Below, in pieces: positions 11,202-20,240 of a stretch of 64,000 nt of DNA. A program made the position numbers and the translations under genes. The stretch lies in the NCBI RefSeq assembly GCF_016919385.1, contig NZ_CP070351.1:2728001-2792000 (forward strand). Reading direction: 5' to 3'. The notes beneath the pieces are model-generated. The model was not told where the DNA came from and did no database searches. It saw only the letters and a program-made list of their open reading frames with translations. Source of the stretch: Gordonia sp. PDNC005. Its GTDB lineage: Bacteria > Actinomycetota > Actinomycetes > Mycobacteriales > Mycobacteriaceae. The stretch's first letter is position 1, and each line of letters begins with the position of its first letter.

Positions 11202-12254
11202 ATGAACCTGCAGGCAGTTCGCACCCTCGCCGGACTCGAAGTCCGTCAACGCATCCGCTCCACTCGCTGGCAGATCACCGCCGGGATCCTCTTTCTGCTC
11301 GTCAGCATGTTCATCCTCGGCTCGCTGTATCTCGTGGTCGGCATCGCTGGCGTCACCTATCGCGACTGGGCGAGGAACCTCCTCGACATCACGCTCGGCA
11401 TCGTGCTGTTCCTCGGCGTCGCCGCGGCGCCGACCTTGAGCGCGACGTCGATCAACGGCGACCGCCGGGACGCGACACTCGCCCTGGTCCAGGCCACCCC
11501 GATCTCCTCGTGGGACATCGCGATCGGCAAGCTCGTCGGTTCGTGGCTGGCTTCGCTCGCGCTGATCGGCGTGGCTCTCCCCTACCTGCTGTGGGGCATC
11601 GCGACGAGCCGCGCGTCGCTCGTGTTCGGTGTCCTCTCCGTGATCGTGACCGCGCTGATCATGCTCGGCTACTGCGCCATCGGGCTCGGCTTCTCCTCAC
11701 TGACCAACCGTCCGGCGGCGTCGGCCATGCTGACCCAGGCCACTGTGCTGTTCCTGCTCATCGGCCTGCCGATCGGCTTCGGGTTCACCTACCCGCTCGT
11801 CGCACAGGACCATCGGGTGGCCGTCACGCACTACGACTACACCTCATCGTCGCCGACCGAGTGCACCCTCGTGATGAAGGACAAGGAGTTCAACCACACC
11901 GAGTACACGTGGTGGATGCTTGCACCGAACCCATTGCTCATCGTGAGTGACACCGTTGCGGGCGGCATCAGCGACTTCGACGACGGATCGGACGGGGGCG
12001 GGTCCGGGTTCTTCTCGTACCTGCTGTCCGCCGCGAGGACCGGGCCCGAGGTGGCCGACGAGAAGTGCAGCGACCGTCAGACCTATTCCTCCGGTCCACT
12101 GGACGACGAGGACTGGTCGGCTCAGAACGTCGGCCGCAGCTGGTACATCGGACTGGTCATGACGCTGGCCATCGGCGGATTCGGCCTGTGGGTGGCAGCC
12201 CGCCGCCTCCGCGTACCGGCGGGGAAGCTCGCGCGAGGGGTGCGTGTCGCATGA
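11202..12254 (+). CDS. ABC-2 type transporter permease
   Basis: 350 residues. Membrane segments occur near residues 25-50, 60-85, 105-135 (SWLASLALIGVALPYLLWGI), 145-170 and 180-195. A long extracytoplasmic loop of about 110 residues rich in Asp, Gly and Ser comes next, and a last helix near residues 310-330 (IGLVMTLAIGGFGLWVAA). This is the ABC-2 permease pattern with an unusually long loop before the final helix. It partners the ATPase just upstream. Its TGA overlaps the ATG of the next gene. Confidence 0.85.
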   Translation: MNLQAVRTLAGLEVRQRIRSTRWQITAGILFLLVSMFILGSLYLVVGIAGVTYRDWARNLLDITLGIVLFLGVAAAPTLSATSINGDRRDATLALVQATPISSWDIAIGKLVGSWLASLALIGVALPYLLWGIATSRASLVFGVLSVIVTALIMLGYCAIGLGFSSLTNRPAASAMLTQATVLFLLIGLPIGFGFTYPLVAQDHRVAVTHYDYTSSSPTECTLVMKDKEFNHTEYTWWMLAPNPLLIVSDTVAGGISDFDDGSDGGGSGFFSYLLSAARTGPEVADEKCSDRQTYSSGPLDDEDWSAQNVGRSWYIGLVMTLAIGGFGLWVAARRLRVPAGKLARGVRVA

Positions 12255-12595
12255 GTGTGACCGTCGCTCGCGTCTACGACTCTCCGACTGCCGACCGAGT
12301 GTTCGTCGATCGACTCTGGCCGCGCGGAATCCGCAAGGACGACCCTCGCATCGGCCGATGGTGCAAGGACGTCGCACCGTCGAACGAACTGCGCAATTGG
12401 TACCACGCCAACCGCGACCAGTACGAGTTGTTCACCGCGCGCTACCTGGAGGAGTTGGCTGACGGCGCTGCCGCCGCGGGTCTGGCCGAACTACGAGGTC
12501 TCGCCACCTCGGGCGACGTCGAGATCGCCACCGCGGCGAAAGACGTCGAGCACAGTCACGTGCCGGTGATCATCGCCGCGCTCGGACGTTCATGA
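12251..12595 (+). CDS. DUF488 family protein
   Basis: 114 residues. The segment V-F-V-D-R-L-W-P-R-G-I-R-K-D near residue 18, the W-x-K-D-V-A-P-S-N-E-L-R segment and the Y-x-x-E-L core are typical of the DUF488 family, a small conserved bacterial protein of unknown biochemical role. It begins by ATGA overlap with the permease gene, ending the four-gene operon. Its last 40 bases overlap the 3' end of the convergent TetR gene. Confidence 0.85.
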   Translation: MSVTVARVYDSPTADRVFVDRLWPRGIRKDDPRIGRWCKDVAPSNELRNWYHANRDQYELFTARYLEELADGAAAAGLAELRGLATSGDVEIATAAKDVEHSHVPVIIAALGRS

Positions 12596-13173
12596 GCTCC
12601 CACCCCGAGTAGCGCGCCACACGCCTGTCCCACTTTGACCGCGTCCGGCTCCTCGCCGGTGATGACGTTCGCGTAGACGAACGTCTCTGTGATCCGGACG
12701 AGGATCAGCGCGAGATCGGGAGTCGGAAGCGGAGGCGTGAGGTGTCCGGCGGCCACCTCGTCGTCGATCACCTCTGTGATCCGCTCCACGATCCGCGGCT
12801 GAACTCCCCCGGCCTGCGTCGTCATGACGCGTAGAGCACGTTCGGGTTCACGACTGAAGAACAGTCGGATGTGATCGGCGGTGTTCGCCAGTGTCGCGAA
12901 CTCGACCATCAAGGACGTGATCCGTGCCGCGCCCTTGCCGCGCGACCGTCGGATCGCAGCCTCCATCGTGCGAGACGTCAGACCCCAGAGCACCTCTCCC
13001 AGCAGGCCGTCGCGGCCGTGAAAGCGCCGGTAGACGGTGCTGCGGTTGACCCCTGCCTCCGTCGCGAGCTCGCCGACCTCGATGCGCTCACCTGCGATGA
13101 ATGCCCGCGTGGCAAGCGCCACCACATCGTTGGACGTCACCCGGTCGGCCTCACATTCCATCGTCTGCACCAT
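12556..13173 (-). CDS. TetR family regulator divergent from an acyl-CoA synthetase gene
   Basis: Up to 205 residues. The helix-turn-helix (about 33-55) contains V-G-E-L-A-T-E-A-G-V-N-R-S-T-V-Y-R-R-F. Two starts are possible, 13173 and 13161. The inverted repeat at 13167-13189 overlaps the first, so the shorter form may be the real one. Placement divergent to the synthetase gene, with a palindrome between, suggests it represses that gene and itself, probably responding to an acyl-CoA or fatty acid (inference). Confidence 0.85.
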   Translation of the reverse strand: MVQTMECEADRVTSNDVVALATRAFIAGERIEVGELATEAGVNRSTVYRRFHGRDGLLGEVLWGLTSRTMEAAIRRSRGKGAARITSLMVEFATLANTADHIRLFFSREPERALRVMTTQAGGVQPRIVERITEVIDDEVAAGHLTPPLPTPDLALILVRITETFVYANVITGEEPDAVKVGQACGALLGVGAHERPSAAMITGT

Positions 13174-13189: not shown

Positions 13190-13299
13190 GCGGTTTCTGG
13201 TCTAATGTTGCAAACTAGCCGATGGAGAAGTGAAGCCGCTCACTTTCCGGCGAACCTATGGTCCGGTCCATCCGGACGGCGCGAATGAAGGAGACTCTC

Positions 13300-14946
13300 T
13301 TGATCCAGACCACGATGCAACGCGGAGCACTGACGATTCCGAGCCTCGTCGAGTACAGCCGCCGCATGTTCCCGGAAGCGTCGATCCAGACGTGGACCGG
13401 CGAGTCGCTGCGCTCCCAGTCGTTCGCCGAGATCGCCGACACCGGCGCTCAGATCGCACACGCCCTGACCAAGCTCGGAGTGGAGCGCGGCGACCGCGTG
13501 GCCACGTTCATGTGGAACAACAACGAACACCAGGCGATCTACGCGGGTGTCCCGTCGATGGGTGCGGTCCTGCACACCCTGAACCTGCGCCTCTCCCCCG
13601 AGCAGGCCGTCTTCATCATCAATCACGCCGACGACAAGGTGATCTTCGTCGACGCCACCGTCGCACCGATGCTCGCCGCGTACCTGCAGGGCACCCCGAA
13701 GGTGCAGCACGTTGTGGTCGTCAACGGCCCCGCCGATGCCATCACCGCACCCGAGGGCATCACCGTTCACCAGTTCGACGACTTGATCGCAGGCGAACCG
13801 ACCACCTTCGAATGGCCGGACATCGACGAGAACGACGCCGCCGTCATGTGTTACACCTCGGGCACCACCGGCGACCCGAAGGGCGTCGTCTACTCGCACC
13901 GCAGCATCTACCTGCACTCGCTGATCGTCACCACCACCATGGGCATGCGACTGTCGAACGCCGACAAGATGTTGGCGATCGTCCCGATGTTCCATGTGAT
14001 GTCGTGGGGCCTGCCCTACGCAGCCATGATGTGCGGCGCGACGCTGATCATGCCCGACCGCTTCCTGCAGCCCGAGCCGCTGCTGCAGATCATGGACACC
14101 GCGAAGCCGACTCTGGCCGCCGCCGTCCCGACCATCTGGGCCGGCGTCTCGGCGATGCTCGACGCGAAGCCCCAGGACATCAGCCACCTCCGCGAGGTCG
14201 TCGTCGGCGGCGCGACCGTCCCGCCGTCGATGATCAAGAAGTTCGACAGCTACGGCGTCACCATCATCCACGCGTGGGGAATGACCGAGACGTCGCCGCT
14301 CGGCTCCGTCGCCCGCCCGCCGTCGAGCGCCACCGAGGAGAACGAGTTCGCGTACCGCGTGACGCAGGGCCGCTTCCCGTCGCCCGTCGCAGCACGCCTC
14401 ATCGGCGACGACGGCACCGAGCAGCCGTGGGACGGCGAGTCCGCGGGCGAACTCGAGGTCTCCGGCCCGTGGATCACCGGCGCGTACTACGACCCGGCGG
14501 GCAACGTCACCGACGAGTCGAAGTTCAACAACGGCTGGCTGCGCACCGGTGACGTCGCGACCGTCACTCCCGACGGCTTCATGACGATCGTCGACCGCGC
14601 GAAGGACATGATCAAGACCGGCGGCGAGTGGATCTCGTCGGTTGAGCTCGAGAGCATCATCGCGTCGAACCCGACGATCGTCGAGGCCACCGTCGTTGGT
14701 GTTCCCGACGCGAAGTGGGACGAGCGCCCGTTCGTCCTTGCGGTCGTCCGCTCCGAGGAGGACGCCGACATCGACGCGCAGCGCAAGTACCTCGAGGACC
14801 TGGTCCCGAAGTGGCAGATCCCCGAGCGTTGGTCGTTCGTCACCGAGGTCCCGAAGACCTCGGTCGGCAAGTTCGACAAGAAGCGTGTCCGCAAGGAATA
14901 CGCCGAAGGCGACTACACCGTGCTGGGCGAGCCCGACAACAGCTGA
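13300..14946 (+). CDS. long-chain/medium-chain acyl-CoA synthetase (FadD-type)
   Basis: 548 residues from a TTG at 13300, preferred because AAGGAG sits 6 bases upstream; an in-frame ATG at 13285 contains that site. The ANL-superfamily P-loop Y-T-S-G-T-T-G-D-P-K-G is near residue 185, the G-W-L-R-T-G-D core and R-A-K-D-M-I-K-T-G-G-E-W hinge follow, and K-T-S-V-G-K-F-D-K-K near residue 525 holds the catalytic lysine. It should activate a fatty acid to acyl-AMP then acyl-CoA. Chain length cannot be read. The divergent TetR gene is the likely regulator. Confidence 0.9.
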   Translation: MIQTTMQRGALTIPSLVEYSRRMFPEASIQTWTGESLRSQSFAEIADTGAQIAHALTKLGVERGDRVATFMWNNNEHQAIYAGVPSMGAVLHTLNLRLSPEQAVFIINHADDKVIFVDATVAPMLAAYLQGTPKVQHVVVVNGPADAITAPEGITVHQFDDLIAGEPTTFEWPDIDENDAAVMCYTSGTTGDPKGVVYSHRSIYLHSLIVTTTMGMRLSNADKMLAIVPMFHVMSWGLPYAAMMCGATLIMPDRFLQPEPLLQIMDTAKPTLAAAVPTIWAGVSAMLDAKPQDISHLREVVVGGATVPPSMIKKFDSYGVTIIHAWGMTETSPLGSVARPPSSATEENEFAYRVTQGRFPSPVAARLIGDDGTEQPWDGESAGELEVSGPWITGAYYDPAGNVTDESKFNNGWLRTGDVATVTPDGFMTIVDRAKDMIKTGGEWISSVELESIIASNPTIVEATVVGVPDAKWDERPFVLAVVRSEEDADIDAQRKYLEDLVPKWQIPERWSFVTEVPKTSVGKFDKKRVRKEYAEGDYTVLGEPDNS

Positions 14947-14955
14947 GACCGGTCC

Positions 14956-14977
14956 TCAGGTTGGCGTTGTAACCTGA
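14956..14977 (+). terminator. hairpin after the acyl-CoA synthetase gene
   Basis: TCAGGTT (14956-14962) pairs with AACCTGA (14971-14977), followed by ATCTTG. It ends 37 bases before the small gene at 15015, so it may end the synthetase transcript or belong to the leader of the small gene. Confidence 0.45.
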
Positions 14978-15014
14978 ATCTTGCGGTACAACGCTCAACC
15001 GAGAGGAGAACCTC

Positions 15015-15101
15015 ATGTTCGATCAGGCTCTGTGGGATGCGATCAACAGCCACGACGGGCTGCTCGGCGTCCTGACGCTGATCTTCTCCGGCGTCAAGTA
15101 G
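15015..15101 (+). CDS. 28-residue peptide, MFDQ/FSGV family, copy 1
   Basis: A tiny gene with a strong ribosome site (AGGAG, 6 bases before the ATG). The product starts MFDQ-A-LW, has Ile10, an aliphatic C-terminal half (L16, L17, V19, L20, L22, I23) and ends FSGVK. It matches copy 2 at 18462 at 13 of 28 positions without gaps, plus several conservative changes, which argues strongly that both are translated. There is no signal peptide; it is probably one amphipathic or membrane-associated helix. Candidate roles are a small mycomembrane porin-like peptide, a membrane-active peptide or a regulator of a neighbour; all are inference. I do not recognise a described family. Confidence 0.75.
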   Translation: MFDQALWDAINSHDGLLGVLTLIFSGVK

Positions 15102-15116
15102 CGCCCCGAATCACTG

Positions 15117-15158
15117 CTCCCCGGGAGTTGGACTGGCCTTCAGTTCACTCTCGGGGAG
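15117..15158 (+). terminator. weak hairpin after small peptide gene 1
   Basis: CTCCCCG (15117-15123) can pair with CGGGGAG (15152-15158) across a 28-base loop. There is no clear T run. The remaining sequence to 15200 shows nothing else. Confidence 0.3.
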
Positions 15159-15201
15159 TTGTCGTATGTGCACGAGCTGCGTCACTCGACCGCGGTGTTC
15201 C

Positions 15202-15227
15202 GTTCGTCTGTAGTTCAACCAGACGAA
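15202..15227 (+). promoter_or_regulatory. possible PHO-box or operator upstream of phoX
   Basis: Two adjacent 11-base units begin GTTC (15202-15212 and 15213-15223), like the 11-base direct repeats bound by actinobacterial phosphate regulators (PhoP/RegX3 type). The same stretch also holds a perfect inverted repeat, TTCGTCTG - 9 bases - CAGACGAA (15203-15227). Either reading fits control of the phosphatase gene starting at 15314. Confidence 0.4.
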
Positions 15228-15313
15228 ACCGCCGCGTGAACGGGCCTGCCTAACGTCACCGGAGTATCCGCCAGCCCATAGCGGACCCAGCACTCTGAAG
15301 TGAAGGCATCTTC

Positions 15314-17332
15314 ATGCGTATCCCGTTGCAGTTGTTCACCGTCGGCGGAGCGGACGTCGGCCGTTCGGCCCGGTCCCGCACCACCTGTAAGTACAAGTGC
15401 GGCGAGGCGTGCTGGCATGAGCCCGGCAACAAGAGCGACAACCCCTACTTCCGAGACGTCGCCCGCACCGCACTGTCGCGTCGCACTGTGCTGCGTGGCA
15501 CCGTGGGCGCCGTTGTCGCGGTCGGCGCCACGTCGATGCTCGCCGCCTGCGGCGACGACTCCGGCAGCACGGCGTCGAGCGGTCCCCTCGAGGGCATGCG
15601 CTTCGACCCCGTCAAGCCGAACACCGACGACGCCCTCCGCATCCCGAAGGGGTACCAGCAGAAGGTCGTCATCCGGTGGGGCGACCCCGTGCTGCCCGGA
15701 GCCCCCGCGTTCAACTTCGACGAGCAGACTCCCGAGGCTCAGGCCAAACAGTTCGGCTTCAACAACGACTTCGCCGGCCTCATCCCCATCGCCGGGGAGA
15801 AGGACAAGTACTACCTGGTGGTCAACCAGGAGTACACAACCGAGCAGTTCATGTTCCGCGGCTACAAGGAGAAGGAGCCGACCGAACAGCAGGCTCGGAT
15901 CTCAATGGCCGCCCACGGCATCACGGTCCTCGAAGTCGCCGGCTCGTCGAAGGACGGCTCCCTGACTCCTGTCATCGGGCCCCGCAACCGACGCATCACC
16001 GCCAGCACCCCGTTCAGACTCACCGGCCCGGCGGCAGGCACGGACTTGGTCAAGTCCAAAGCCGACACCGCGGGCACGACGATCCTCGGCACCATCGCCA
16101 ACTGCTCGGGCGGCATCACGCCGTGGGGCACCATGCTGTCCGGCGAAGAGAACTTCCCCGACTACTTCTCGGGCTTCGGAAAGATCACCGACAAGACGGC
16201 TTCCGAACGCCTCGACCGGTACGGCTTCGAAGACGACGCCGACTACCACCAGTGGAGCCGATACGAGTCGCGCTTCGACCTGACGAAAGACCCCAACGAG
16301 GCTAATCGCTTCGGGTACGTCGTCGAGGTCGACCCGACCGACCCGAACTCGACTCCGCTCAAGCATTCCGCGCTCGGTCGCCTCAAGCACGAGTCGGCGA
16401 ACATCCACGTCACCGCAGACGGCACCGTCGTCGCCTACACCGGAGACGACGAGCGCTTCGAGTACATCTACAAGTTCGTGTCCAGCCGCAAGATCAAGGA
16501 CGGCGACCTCCGCCACAACATGGGCATCCTCACCGAAGGCACCCTGTACGTGGCCGAGTTCAGCAGCGACAAGCCCGTCACCGTCGACGACGCGGCAGGC
16601 TCCGGTCGCTGGCACAAGCTGATGACCGTCGACGCCGACGGCTCGGCGACCTCTCACATCAAGGGCATGACGGCCGCCGAGGTCGCCGTGTTCACCCGCC
16701 TGGCCGCCGACAAGGCGGGCGCCACCAAGATGGACCGCCCCGAGGACATCGAGCCGCACCCGACCAACGGCAAGGTGTACTGCGCCCTCACCAACAACAC
16801 CAAGCGCGGAGTCGACGGCAAGCCCGGCCCCGATGCAGTGAATCCGCGCAACGAGAACAAGAACGGTCAGATCCTCGAGCTGACCGACGATCACGCCGGT
16901 GAGACCTTCACCTGGGACCTGCTCCTCGTCTGCGGCGATCCGAACGAGGCCGACACATACTACGGCGGATTCGACAAGACCAAGGTCAGCCCGATCTCCT
17001 GCCCGGACAATATCGCGTTCGATCCGCACGGCAACCTGTGGATCTCCACCGACGGCAACGCCCTCGACAGCAACGACGGCCTGTTCGCAGTCGCGCTCGA
17101 CGGCGACCGTCGCGGCGAGACCAAACAGTTCCTCACCGTGCCACGCGCCGCCGAGACATGCGGTCCGATCATCGGCGACAAGCGTGTCATCGTCTGTGTC
17201 CAACATCCCGGCGAGGAAGACGATCACTCGGCGGACAAGCCGTTCTCGCACTGGCCTGACGGCGGCGACTCACAGCCGCGTCCGGCCGTCGTCGCGGTGT
17301 GGCGTGACGACTACGGTCTGATCGGCGGCTGA
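15314..17332 (+). CDS. phoX: PhoX-family alkaline phosphatase (DUF839), Tat-exported lipoprotein candidate
   Basis: 672 residues. Twin arginines R56-R57 (S-R-R-T-V-L-R-G) and a hydrophobic stretch are followed by a lipobox L-A-A-C79, so it is probably Tat-exported and lipid-anchored. The N terminus carries the conserved C-K-Y-K-C-G-E-A-C-W-H-E-P cluster. The rest is the DUF839/PhoX propeller with L-S-G-E-E-N-F-P-D-Y-F, H-E-S-A-N, Y-T-G-D-D and R-P-E-D-I-E segments that in the family hold iron/calcium and substrate. It releases phosphate from organic phosphoesters outside the cytoplasm. Upstream repeats suggest phosphate control. It lies between the two 28-residue peptide genes. Confidence 0.93.
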   Translation: MRIPLQLFTVGGADVGRSARSRTTCKYKCGEACWHEPGNKSDNPYFRDVARTALSRRTVLRGTVGAVVAVGATSMLAACGDDSGSTASSGPLEGMRFDPVKPNTDDALRIPKGYQQKVVIRWGDPVLPGAPAFNFDEQTPEAQAKQFGFNNDFAGLIPIAGEKDKYYLVVNQEYTTEQFMFRGYKEKEPTEQQARISMAAHGITVLEVAGSSKDGSLTPVIGPRNRRITASTPFRLTGPAAGTDLVKSKADTAGTTILGTIANCSGGITPWGTMLSGEENFPDYFSGFGKITDKTASERLDRYGFEDDADYHQWSRYESRFDLTKDPNEANRFGYVVEVDPTDPNSTPLKHSALGRLKHESANIHVTADGTVVAYTGDDERFEYIYKFVSSRKIKDGDLRHNMGILTEGTLYVAEFSSDKPVTVDDAAGSGRWHKLMTVDADGSATSHIKGMTAAEVAVFTRLAADKAGATKMDRPEDIEPHPTNGKVYCALTNNTKRGVDGKPGPDAVNPRNENKNGQILELTDDHAGETFTWDLLLVCGDPNEADTYYGGFDKTKVSPISCPDNIAFDPHGNLWISTDGNALDSNDGLFAVALDGDRRGETKQFLTVPRAAETCGPIIGDKRVIVCVQHPGEEDDHSADKPFSHWPDGGDSQPRPAVVAVWRDDYGLIGG

Positions 17333-17375
17333 CCAGGGGTCTGATGCGCCCGAGTCCGCAGACTAAGCTCACACT

Positions 17376-18401
17376 GTGAGCCGCAGGAAGAAACTGACGC
17401 TGGCGGCGATCGGCACCGTCTTGGCGCTGGTCCTCAGTGTCACCGTGTGGGTGCTCGTGGCGAACGATTTCAAGTTCCACGAGGAACGCGTCACCATTCA
17501 GGGTCCGCGGGGTGAGCTGCACGGTGTCCTCGCCCGCCCCGCGGCGTCCAGCGCTCCCTACGGTCTGGTGGTGTTCGTGCACGGCGACGGCCCCGCCGAT
17601 GCGAGTCGTGACGACGCGTACAAGCCGTTGTGGGACGCGTTCGCGAAGGCAGGTTTCGCCAGCCTCTCGTGGGACAAGCCGGGCGTCGACGGTGCTCCCG
17701 GCGACTGGCTCGATCAGTCGATGCACGATCGAGCCGCAGAGGTCGACGCGGCGATCGCCTGGGCGCACACCCGCGACGACATCGACACCACGCGCATCGG
17801 CGCATGGGGAGTCAGTCAGGCGGGCTGGGTGCTCCCAGAGGTGGCCCGAGCACGGCCCGATCTACGGTTCATGATTCTCGTGGGCCCCGCGATCAACTGG
17901 CTGCGTCAGGGTGAGTTCAACCTGCGCGCCGACCTCGCCGCGGCGGGAGCGCCCCCCGACCGCGTCGCATCCGAGATGGGGCGTCGTGCGCGCCAGATCC
18001 AGCTCCTGAAGGCGGGGGCCGACTACAAGACGTACCTCGCCTCCGAGGTGGATCCCGATCCGATGACCGCCGAACGCTGGGCCTTCGTCTCCCGGAACTT
18101 CCGTTCGGATGCCACCGCCGACATCACGCACGTCTCGATCCCGACCCTGCTGATTCTCGGAGGTCGCGACCGGAACGTCGACGTCGCCGAAACCGAACGC
18201 GTGTACCGGGCGACGATGCCGCCGAACACGTTGACCGTCAAGAACTTTCCCGACGGAACGCACAGCATGACGCGCAACGACATCGAGTACAACCCGGACA
18301 ATCTACGAGCCGTCGGACGCACGATCTTCGCCCCGAGGTCTATTTACGTGCCGGGTTACCTGGACGCACTCCGAGTGTTCGCCAAGCGGCAGGCCGGATG
18401 A
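17376..18401 (+). CDS. membrane-anchored alpha/beta hydrolase
   Basis: 341 residues. Residues 8-29 form an N-terminal anchor (LTLAAIGTVLALVLSVTVWVLV), followed by an alpha/beta-hydrolase domain of the prolyl-oligopeptidase/dienelactone type: oxyanion H-G-D-G, nucleophile G-V-S147-Q-A-G, D in G-G-R-D-R-N, H in D-G-T-H-S-M. It should act outside the membrane as an esterase or peptidase. The GTG start has TAAGCT six bases upstream, fitting a leaderless mRNA. A hairpin overlaps its stop, and small peptide gene 2 follows. Confidence 0.85.
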   Translation: MSRRKKLTLAAIGTVLALVLSVTVWVLVANDFKFHEERVTIQGPRGELHGVLARPAASSAPYGLVVFVHGDGPADASRDDAYKPLWDAFAKAGFASLSWDKPGVDGAPGDWLDQSMHDRAAEVDAAIAWAHTRDDIDTTRIGAWGVSQAGWVLPEVARARPDLRFMILVGPAINWLRQGEFNLRADLAAAGAPPDRVASEMGRRARQIQLLKAGADYKTYLASEVDPDPMTAERWAFVSRNFRSDATADITHVSIPTLLILGGRDRNVDVAETERVYRATMPPNTLTVKNFPDGTHSMTRNDIEYNPDNLRAVGRTIFAPRSIYVPGYLDALRVFAKRQAG

Positions 18402-18427
18402 CACCGACGTGATTTACTGTGTCATCC
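18396..18427 (+). terminator. hairpin overlapping the hydrolase stop
   Basis: GGATGACAC (18396-18404) pairs perfectly with GTGTCATCC (18419-18427) around a 14-base loop. It ends 34 bases before small peptide gene 2, echoing the arrangement before copy 1. Confidence 0.5.
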
Positions 18428-18461
18428 GAATGATTCACCCAGACTAGGCAAAGAGGTCTTC

Positions 18462-18548
18462 ATGTTCGATCAGTGGCTGTGGAACACCATCCAGGACAAC
18501 CCCCACGTCCTCGCGGCTCTTGCGCACGTCTTCTCCGGCGTGCAGTAA
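18462..18548 (+). CDS. 28-residue peptide, MFDQ/FSGV family, copy 2
   Basis: Same length as copy 1 at 15015. It begins MFDQ-W-LW, has Ile10, aliphatic positions V16, L17, L20, V23 and ends FSGVQ. The first 12 bases are identical to copy 1. A ribosome site AAGAGG lies 5 bases before the ATG, and a clear terminator follows 20 bases after the stop, so it looks like a complete small transcription unit. Identity with copy 1 is 13 of 28 with no gaps. The differing residues show divergence at the protein level rather than a recent duplication. No known family recognised; function unknown. Confidence 0.75.
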   Translation: MFDQWLWNTIQDNPHVLAALAHVFSGVQ

Positions 18549-18567
18549 CTCGAAGCCGATTCCGCGG

Positions 18568-18602
18568 AACGCCCTCCGACCTCCCCGGGTCGAGGGCGTT
18601 TT
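18568..18602 (+). terminator. intrinsic terminator after small peptide gene 2
   Basis: AACGCCCTC (18568-18576) pairs with GAGGGCGTT (18592-18600), followed by TTGT. Confidence 0.65.
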
Positions 18603-18718
18603 GTCGTTCCCGGGGCCGGTGGACGGTACGCATCGAGGGCCACGAGATCGGCACAGGTAGCCGGACACGCGATCTCACCATCCTCCACGCGGCACTTCGC
18701 CCGACCGGGGAGCCATCG

Positions 18719-18750
18719 GAAGCCCGGCACCTGTCTGGGTTCCGGGCTTC
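18719..18750. terminator. hairpin in the gap before the HEPN gene
   Basis: GAAGCCCGG (18719-18727) pairs with CCGGGCTTC (18742-18750) over a 14-base loop. The surrounding gap (18603-18824) holds no gene that I can support; it may mark the left edge of the ssrA-proximal islet. Confidence 0.45.
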
Positions 18751-18824
18751 TGTCGTCCATCCAGATCAGTCGGCCCCGTCACGTCCCTCAGCCATCGGCG
18801 GACTGAGGTGCTACCCGTGCGACG

Positions 18825-20240
18825 ATGGCGGCTGTGGACGACGCTAAGAAGCTGATCGAGTCGTATGGGGTGATCGAGCCCGGTGAATACGACTGCGACT
18901 GGACGATCAACGGAACAACTATGCGAGGCGAGGTTGAGCTCCTGAGCGGTCACAGTCCTGGCGGGTCCGCAAGAGGTCGACTCCACGACGGACATGCTCC
19001 CGGACGCCCTGCCGCGCGTGAGTGGAGGTACCCGCACCACCAGGACGAACCACTAATCCGGGGATACATCGCCAGCCGCGACCTGCACGTAACACTGCTC
19101 GACGCGACCGTCACTGCGGTGTTCACCGACCAGTTGCTCATCGCAAGTGCGATTGCGTTGGTATCGAGGCATGAAATGCCCGACAGCGCACTGTTCACGT
19201 CGATGTCCGTCCAGATGACGCGTCTCGACCACTTCGTGGGACTGGCCCCGCTCGACACGCAGGTGATCCCGAAGGAGGGGCCGCCCTACGACTTCGGAGC
19301 CACGACGACCACGATGAAGCAGGTATGGACCGCGGCCGGCATGACCGCAGAGTTCTGGTACGGGTACCGATCGGCAATCAACCCGTATCAGCTGTCGGTC
19401 CGGTTCACGCCTTGGATCAGCTTTACGTCAGCGACCCCCTTGTCTGCCGAGACGTGGCTAAGAAGCTGGTGCCTCCCACTGCGTGCTCTGATCTCAGTAT
19501 CAACAGGCGAGACCGAGCAGGTAACCCTCGCTACGTTGACTGCTGAGGGTGTTGATGCAGCCAAAGCTCACCTGTTCATGAACCTCAGCACGCATCAGCC
19601 CTACTACAGCTCCCAGCGGCCTTCCGAGCGACTCGCGTTTACCGCAGAGAAGAGCAACCTTTCCCTTGTCGACGCGTTGATTCGCAGGAACGAACTGCAC
19701 GCCGCTGGACACCCCTTGATCGCTGGGTACAACACCGCCGCAATCGGTCGAGACCAACATCCGCAGGCGCGTCTACTGCTACTCCTCCAATGGATGGAAG
19801 CGAGCTTCGGCTTCGGTCAGAGGGACAAGATCGCGGTGCAGCAAGCGAAACACGACGCGACCGTCACATCGCTGCTAGAGAAGGTCGCTGAGCTGAAAAC
19901 CGAAGGGCGACTTACCCGCAGGGAAGCGAAGCTCGCTAAGCGCGTCCCGCGACGTGCCCTGCCCACCTTGGGGGAAGCCCTTAGCCACTACCTCAGTCGT
20001 CATGCCGACCTCGACACCGAGCAGATGCTGGGTCGCACGGTGCTCATCGCTGAGCTGATCGAGTCCGATTGCGAGTCGGTGATCGACGCGTTGCGGACCA
20101 TCCGCAACGGCCTGTCACACGGAACCGAGAGCTACGAGCCGCGACGACTGGACGAACTGGTCAGAGTCCTCCATCCCCTGGTCCGGGCCGAGTATCTGGC
20201 TCTGCTGGGCGGGTCATTCGATGCGGCGTCGCCGACGTAA
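18825..20240 (+). CDS. HEPN-domain protein resembling ApeA anti-phage proteins
   Basis: 471 residues. The C-terminal helical domain carries R427-N-G-L-S-H432, the R-x4-H catalytic signature of HEPN ribonucleases, preceded by helices containing L-I-E-S-D-C-E-S-V-I-D-A-L and followed by V-R-A-E-Y-L. The N-terminal 280 residues are beta-rich (E-Y-D-C-D-W-T-I-N-G, then R-G-E-V-E-L-L-S-G), like the ApeA N-terminal domain. ApeA-type proteins cause abortive infection by RNA cleavage (established for E. coli ApeA; here inference). Third codon positions look less GC-rich than in neighbouring genes, and a broken integrase and the ssrA 3' end follow, so it is probably transferred. No clear ribosome site; a downstream GTG at 18831 is an alternative start. 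Confidence 0.65.
   Translation: MAAVDDAKKLIESYGVIEPGEYDCDWTINGTTMRGEVELLSGHSPGGSARGRLHDGHAPGRPAAREWRYPHHQDEPLIRGYIASRDLHVTLLDATVTAVFTDQLLIASAIALVSRHEMPDSALFTSMSVQMTRLDHFVGLAPLDTQVIPKEGPPYDFGATTTTMKQVWTAAGMTAEFWYGYRSAINPYQLSVRFTPWISFTSATPLSAETWLRSWCLPLRALISVSTGETEQVTLATLTAEGVDAAKAHLFMNLSTHQPYYSSQRPSERLAFTAEKSNLSLVDALIRRNELHAAGHPLIAGYNTAAIGRDQHPQARLLLLLQWMEASFGFGQRDKIAVQQAKHDATVTSLLEKVAELKTEGRLTRREAKLAKRVPRRALPTLGEALSHYLSRHADLDTEQMLGRTVLIAELIESDCESVIDALRTIRNGLSHGTESYEPRRLDELVRVLHPLVRAEYLALLGGSFDAASPT

Follow-up and report, generated by a model that had tools for sequence, protein, structure and literature searches.

The window analysed here is a 64,000-nucleotide stretch of the genome of Gordonia sp. 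PDNC005 (4.26 Mb in a single contig; NZ_CP070351.1, positions 2,728,001 to 2,792,000), in which two very short genes on the forward strand, termed peptide A and peptide B, lie 3.4 kb apart and encode 28 residues each (Table 1). An initial annotation of the window had described them as twins flanking phoX and a hydrolase gene, and both open reading frames (ORFs) are present where it placed them, with matches to the PhoX and Hydrolase_4 families in between. As it had also claimed, the two products are identical without gaps at 13 of 28 residues (positions 1, 2, 3, 4, 6, 7, 10, 17, 20, 24, 25, 26, and 27), and the first 12 bases of the two ORFs are the same. Besides the initiating methionine, this leaves 12 identities, a number reached by none of 200,000 shuffles, the best of which gave 11. 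Purine-rich ribosome sites precede both ORFs, in keeping with the good sites described before, and peptide A used as a lone query retrieves peptide B from its own genome at an expectation value (E) of 0.02. Judged by sequence comparison, A and B are two members of a family of protein-coding microgenes that is restricted to Gordonia as far as sampled.

The extent of this family was examined with two profiles, A1 (10 rows) and A2 (26 rows). As a single query, peptide A hit 8 of 41 genomes with an E cutoff of 1; these are all Gordonia genomes, its own among them. The A2 profile recovers 30 full-length copies in 26 of 59 Gordonia genomes (E 2.2e-18 to 6.1e-12), with two copies in four genomes (G000, G020, G054, and G055) and one copy in 22. 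Because most of the 30 copies are A2 rows or identical to a row, these E-values describe membership only; independent evidence comes from the A1 profile, which gave the copies absent from it E-values no worse than 2.7e-9. Length is 27 or 28 residues throughout the 30 copies, and the four of 27 residues are without position 1, their methionine occupying the hydrophobic place of residue 2. The genome that contains the window is probably near G. malaquae (fadD 99% and hydrolase 94% identical).

Selection on the protein, which had been proposed from the comparison of A with B, is borne out across the family, and the comparison of synonymous with nonsynonymous differences points the same way. The proportion of synonymous differences (pS, 0.05-0.76) exceeds that of nonsynonymous differences (pN, 0.00-0.26) in every printed pair of 28-residue copies that are >70% identical and differ in DNA, pairs that share ancestry and are not independent. 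Peptide A and its relative in G020, for example, differ with pS 0.46 and pN 0.11. The flanks diverge while length stays fixed at 27-28 residues: in six pairs, identity is 0.70-0.81 in the coding part, 0.44-0.71 in the 60 bases before it, and 0.21-0.50 in the 80 bases after it. Among the 26 distinct peptides, W7, L20, and S25 never vary, position 3 is D or E, and position 26 is G in 24. The serine singled out as conserved in A and B is present in 30 of 30 copies, encoded by TCC in 15, TCG in 8, and AGC in 7; since exchange between TCN and AGY needs more than one change, it is the serine itself, and not the codon, that is under selection. S25 is kept in L085 and L091, whose peptides end in MSQVF, though both F24 and G26 are replaced there.

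Table 1. Features at the peptide locus (positions in the window; A2, family profile of 26 rows)
Feature	Position	Strand	Basis
Peptide A gene: MFDQALWDAINSHDGLLGVLTLIFSGVK, 28 amino acids	15015..15101	+	Sequence; A2 profile E 7e-15 (own row in profile)
Peptide B gene: MFDQWLWNTIQDNPHVLAALAHVFSGVQ, 28 amino acids	18462..18548	+	Sequence; A2 profile E 3e-18 (own row in profile)
Ribosome site of A, AGAGGAG	15002..15008	+	Sequence; leaders of relatives
Ribosome site of B, AAAGAGG	18450..18456	+	Sequence
Putative -10 box of A, TAACCT, start at -45	14970..14975	+	TAnnnT leader scan
Putative -10 box of B, TACTGT, start at -47	18415..18420	+	TAnnnT leader scan
Terminator-like stem-loop after A	15116..15159	+	Fold z -3.9
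Terminator-like stem-loop and T run after B	18568..18601	+	75-base fold -36.4 kcal/mol, z -1.3
ABC-2 type permease upstream of fadD	11202-12254	+	PF12679
TetR-family regulator divergent from fadD	12556-13173	-	PF18598
fadD-like AMP-binding acyl-CoA synthetase, left border of peptide site	13258..14946	+	PF00501, E 8.6e-73
PhoX phosphatase, between A and hydrolase	15314..17332	+	PF05787, E 8e-155
Hydrolase_4 alpha/beta hydrolase, hydrophobic N-terminus, between A and B	17376..18401	+	PF12146, E 5.7e-12
ORF of 471 amino acids directly after peptide B	18825-20240	+	ApeA_NTD1, PF18862, E 5.4e-7

The search of related genomes, named in the initial annotation as a test that could refute it, spoke for genuine genes: it returned homologues in 26 of 59 Gordonia genomes, and none that is credible outside the genus in samples of 298 genomes of the order, 401 of the family, and 396 of the phylum (Gordonia members included in each). 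This absence, like that in the 33 other Gordonia genomes, is bounded by the sampling and by a first-look prefilter that may miss divergent copies. Weak profile matches do occur outside Gordonia (best E 0.0026 in the phylum, 0.0098 in the order, and 0.043 in the family), all listed ones being partial and most lying in longer frames, and the weak A1 and A2 matches within Gordonia (E 0.01 or worse) are likewise partial and lie in frames of at least 173 residues. None of ten weak matches inspected, four of them inside Gordonia, is a free-standing 28-residue ORF, and two that resemble part of the motif were dropped as chance (L158, from another family of the phylum, E 0.005 in a frame of 83 residues; L160, E 0.047 in a frame of 14 residues). 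The stretch in L158, around 1501-1566, reads ILW...NHPLILHFLRHIFSD and resembles the peptide core, probably by chance.

The initial annotation knew no such family, and none in Pfam or NCBIfam describes the peptides when the 26 members are scanned; no porin family matches either. Matches to an XPC-binding domain (three of 26 members, best E 0.002), to Nudc_N (one member), and to Rad23 (one member, E 0.053) were set aside as chance likenesses of short helices. A family profile search of the PDB gave three matches, all at E 0.31 or worse. Peptide B gave one poor match in the plasmid collection (E 6) and none in the phage collection, where the DNA of A had no match, and a literature search found no report of such peptides in Gordonia. 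By these genome comparisons it is a real microprotein family, without a name in Pfam or NCBIfam and confined to the genus as far as sampled.

Each peptide is probably transcribed as its own short mRNA. In 22 of 30 copies, a TAnnnT box begins 41-50 bases ahead of the start codon; 500 base-shuffled leader sets average 3.4 such copies and never exceed 9. The interval scanned (-56 to -40) was picked after the leaders had been viewed, and closely related genomes account for several of the copies, which are not independent. Three further copies have the box at -39 and five have none. The hairpin described after each ORF proves to be a family feature, with a fold after the stop codon at z -2.9 or below in 25 of 30 copies; the exceptions are L082, L085, L090, L093, and peptide B, which has z -1.3 yet a clear stem-loop with a T run. 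The nearest called upstream gene lies on the opposite strand in three of 30 (L078, L080, and L083), and the 72-residue call in L078 may be spurious. With their -10-like boxes and downstream stem-loops, most copies thus look like independent short transcription units. Two scans count against such independence: a consensus sigma-70 scan, a weak test in this bacterial group, gave no promoter on either strand at the locus, and a terminator pattern scan lists neither peptide's stem-loop. Rfam at gathering scores gave no RNA within 14500-19200. A hairpin upstream of both ORFs had been claimed as well, and this part did not hold: only the leader of A stands out from shuffles (z -3.9), B having z -0.46 in spite of a stem drawn for its leader, and both folded stretches include the putative -10 box.

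Surroundings were compared at 26 loci with a simple gene caller (ORFs of at least 70 residues) and blastp clusters, one representative per cluster being scanned for domains. No called gene is common to all 26 loci; the commonest, a fadD-like gene, adjoins the peptide or lies near it in 15. The commonest site order is fadD-[A]-hydrolase-[B], four genomes having both peptides, two only A, and five only B. Among the 11 genomes with this hydrolase, phoX stands between A and the hydrolase only in the window and G055 (cluster c39, found in the window and L075 only), and G020 has a second hydrolase homologue (56%) elsewhere. At other sites, the upstream genes encode an HpcH aldolase and an acyl-CoA dehydrogenase (L089, L090, and L093), and neighbours include arginine deiminase with aldehyde dehydrogenase (L085 and L091), a pyridine nucleotide oxidoreductase (L077), an AidB-like dehydrogenase (L086), and a PF11271 'Porin PorA' protein (L083, 7561-8853). 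The TetR-family regulator divergent from fadD may possibly control the peptide site. In three genomes, the peptide is followed by a 450-amino-acid neocarzinostatin-family protein (PF00960; L076 9586-10938; cluster c27, in L076, L079, and L082). The ORF directly after peptide B (cluster c71) occurs at no other of the 26 loci, and its domain, ApeA_NTD1, bears a name known from an anti-phage protein; PADLOC gave no match for any of the three proteins submitted, this one included.

All 26 distinct peptides have a net charge of -1 to -3 (K, R, D, and E counted) and none contains Cys. No transmembrane or signal-like stretch is apparent by inspection of the sequences, without a signal-peptide predictor, which agrees with the earlier suggestion that the peptides are signal-less. 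A helical form had been suggested too, and AlphaFold2 predicts two helices that are interrupted at N13 (mean predicted local distance difference test 80, predicted template modelling score 0.34). They span model residues 2-14 and 16-27, which correspond to roughly 1-12 and 14-25 in peptide numbering, because the 19 input sequences (out of 26) had been lengthened to 30 residues by the two or three codons in front of each. Asparagine followed by P, D, or E, as at positions 13 and 14, is a usual helix start. Family-averaged hydrophobicity is helix-periodic in residues 14-24 (p 0.03) and weakly so in residues 2-12 (p 0.12), and conservation along the peptide is periodic (p 0.027). With a short, acidic, two-helix chain and no transmembrane stretch, the peptides most likely act at a membrane or protein surface.

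We tentatively propose that the family consists of signal-less, kinked two-helix envelope peptides, possibly O-mycoloylated on S25 by a Cmt1-like enzyme, and we give this a probability of a little over one in three. In such a scheme, a short mRNA of its own would yield an acidic peptide of 27-28 residues without a signal, with two short helices (about residues 2-12 and 14-25), a hinge at N13, and a loose C-terminal end by S25. Export would need no classical signal, in the manner of PorA, PorH, and ProtX of Corynebacterium glutamicum, and the peptide would come to rest in or against the mycomembrane. There, S25 would receive a mycolic acid from a Cmt1/MytC-like mycoloyltransferase that holds the peptide in place, and A and B may assemble together. 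PorH (57 amino acids) is modified at S56 and PorA at S15, neither having a signal sequence (PMC12632848), and Cmt1/MytC adds the mycolate to PorA, PorH, and ProtX (PMC12632848; PMC11927696). Assembly of PorH at the surface depends on PorA and on the modification sites (PMC12632848; PMC11927696). Serines that carry a mycolate follow no strict motif and are described in accessible, flexible regions with small residues nearby (PMC11066868). By analogy, S25-G26 at the chain end fits this setting.

The likeness to PorA, PorH, and ProtX extends to very small size, helical character (by prediction for PorA and PorH), lack of a signal sequence, and a mycolate-bearing actinobacterial host with Cmt1-like enzymes. 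The serine is near the chain end both in PorH (56 of 57) and in the Gordonia peptides (25 of 28), and two different peptides sometimes share one site, as with PorA and PorH. The Gordonia peptides differ in having 28 residues, compared with 45 and 57, and in that 22 of 26 genomes hold a single peptide. As for the enzyme, four of the eleven PF00756 matches in the window genome were compared with the PDB; three have Cmt1 as their best match, so that the genome has at least three such enzymes, and the remaining one is closer to PS1. Orthologues of mytC are on record in Nocardia, Gordonia, and Rhodococcus (PMC5310785). A bolder version, which we consider doubtful, is that these are the smallest set so far of encoded mycolate-lipidated peptides, 28-residue helices anchored in the Gordonia mycomembrane by S25, exported without a signal, and forming with A and B a miniature two-component assembly like PorA/PorH.

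Several points weigh against the proposal of a mycoloylated envelope peptide. Not all of the mytC-orthologue enzymes functioned in C. glutamicum (PMC5310785). For Rhodococcus, Nocardia, Tsukamurella, and mycobacteria, the known cell-wall channels are MspA-like, and channels of the small helical type have been linked to the thin corynebacterial mycolate layer (PMC9233653). Cmt1-like homologues occur in 59 of 59 Gordonia genomes (E <= 1e-60), with or without the peptide, so their presence does not discriminate, and the 33 genomes in which no copy was detected imply that Gordonia does not need the peptide as such. AlphaFold2 places S25 at the end of the second helix, as its final residue, and outside the free tail. 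Taken as a single helix, residues 2-24 are not periodic in family-averaged hydrophobicity (p 0.29), and only 8 of 26 distinct peptides reach p<0.05 for the hydrophobic moment of a single 100-degree helix. PorA, PorH, and ProtX are likened by description and not by sequence, and we infer translation, export, location, lipidation, and assembly from sequence.

SpoVM of Bacillus is an amphipathic peptide of the membrane interface, and it is possible, though on the unlikely side, that the Gordonia peptides act in a similar manner at the inner face of the plasma membrane, where in-plane helices would recruit or tune lipid metabolism or division and S25 would serve as a helix-end or contact residue. 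The two are of similar size, lack a signal, and form a helix without a transmembrane stretch; however, they belong to different organism groups with no known sequence relation, and the Gordonia peptide has an invariant serine near its end and a kinked two-helix model. The predicted helices, the position of S25 at a helix end, and the absence of a signal-like or transmembrane stretch suit this explanation, which requires no unknown export route. Acyl-CoA or lipid enzymes are frequent among the neighbours, and smpB-ftsX-ftsE-like genes lie close to the main site. However, an amphipathic helix alone leaves the invariance of S25 and W7 unexplained, and the neighbours vary among sites without a known partner.

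Export of the peptide as a surfactant like the phenol-soluble modulins, or as a leaderless bacteriocin, would provide for surface spreading, hydrocarbon wetting, or inhibition of neighbours, and we consider it unlikely. Phenol-soluble modulins act as surfactants and are exported by a dedicated ABC transporter, and leaderless bacteriocins are cationic and have adjacent immunity or export genes. Such peptides are short, signal-less, and helical with a formyl-methionine start that is likely kept, and the methionine is expected to be retained in most of the Gordonia peptides by the established rule on residue 2. The family is hydrophobic, has one or two copies per genome, and is patchy (26 of 59 genomes), and an ABC-2 type permease upstream of fadD in ten of 26 loci is a conceivable exporter. 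That permease cluster is found only at fadD sites, though, and not at the eleven sites without fadD, and no exporter or immunity gene is common to the sites among called genes of at least 70 residues. The peptides are acidic throughout, unlike leaderless bacteriocins, and the strict conservation of single residues such as W7 and S25 is unusual for surfactants.

The adjacent hydrolase leads to a further alternative, that of a small protein partner or regulator of this enzyme or of the fatty-acid enzymes nearby, which we hold to be quite unlikely. The hydrolase occurs in 11 of 59 Gordonia genomes (E <= 1e-25), and all 11 have it at this site with an adjoining peptide gene (Fisher p 2.8e-5 for joint presence, kinship uncorrected). 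Six further genomes carry a fadD orthologue (70-73%) without a peptide there and are also without the hydrolase, G042 among them having a peptide elsewhere; a scan of both strands at these six sites gave no ORF of the family pattern (the L131 stretch ends about 2.3 kb past fadD). In four other genomes (L069, L089, L090, and L093), a different esterase, BD-FAE, is encoded downstream of the peptide, at a distance of one or more genes. Yet the peptide occurs without this hydrolase in 15 of 26 genomes, the 11 genomes may be one clade, and the other neighbours are unrelated.

It is very unlikely that the peptides are the small hydrophobic toxins of type I toxin-antitoxin systems. Type I toxins are hydrophobic transmembrane peptides paired with an antisense RNA; the short length, the probable own transcript with a terminator, and the one or two copies per genome would agree with this, but the peptides are acidic, none of those listed has a long uninterrupted hydrophobic stretch, and neither an Rfam RNA nor, in a test that is weak in this group, a consensus promoter on either strand was found at the locus, although an antisense RNA could escape both of these scans. 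Chance ORFs or a conserved non-coding RNA are hardly credible, since even for such short frames in a GC-rich genome with many spurious ones, protein-level conservation at unlinked loci, pS above pN, diverging flanks, and fixed length argue against them.

The peptides add a clearly selected family of 28-residue proteins that is unnamed in Pfam and NCBIfam and small enough for gene finders to miss. PMC12632848 treats the route by which mycomembrane peptides without a signal get across the plasma membrane as an open question, and PMC5310785 does so for how far protein mycoloylation extends outside Corynebacterium. For both, a 28-residue candidate with a single invariant serine is about the simplest conceivable test object. 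If the peptides are indeed lipidated with mycolate, protein mycoloylation would be extended to another genus, and the family would offer a minimal substrate for tracing the unknown export route.

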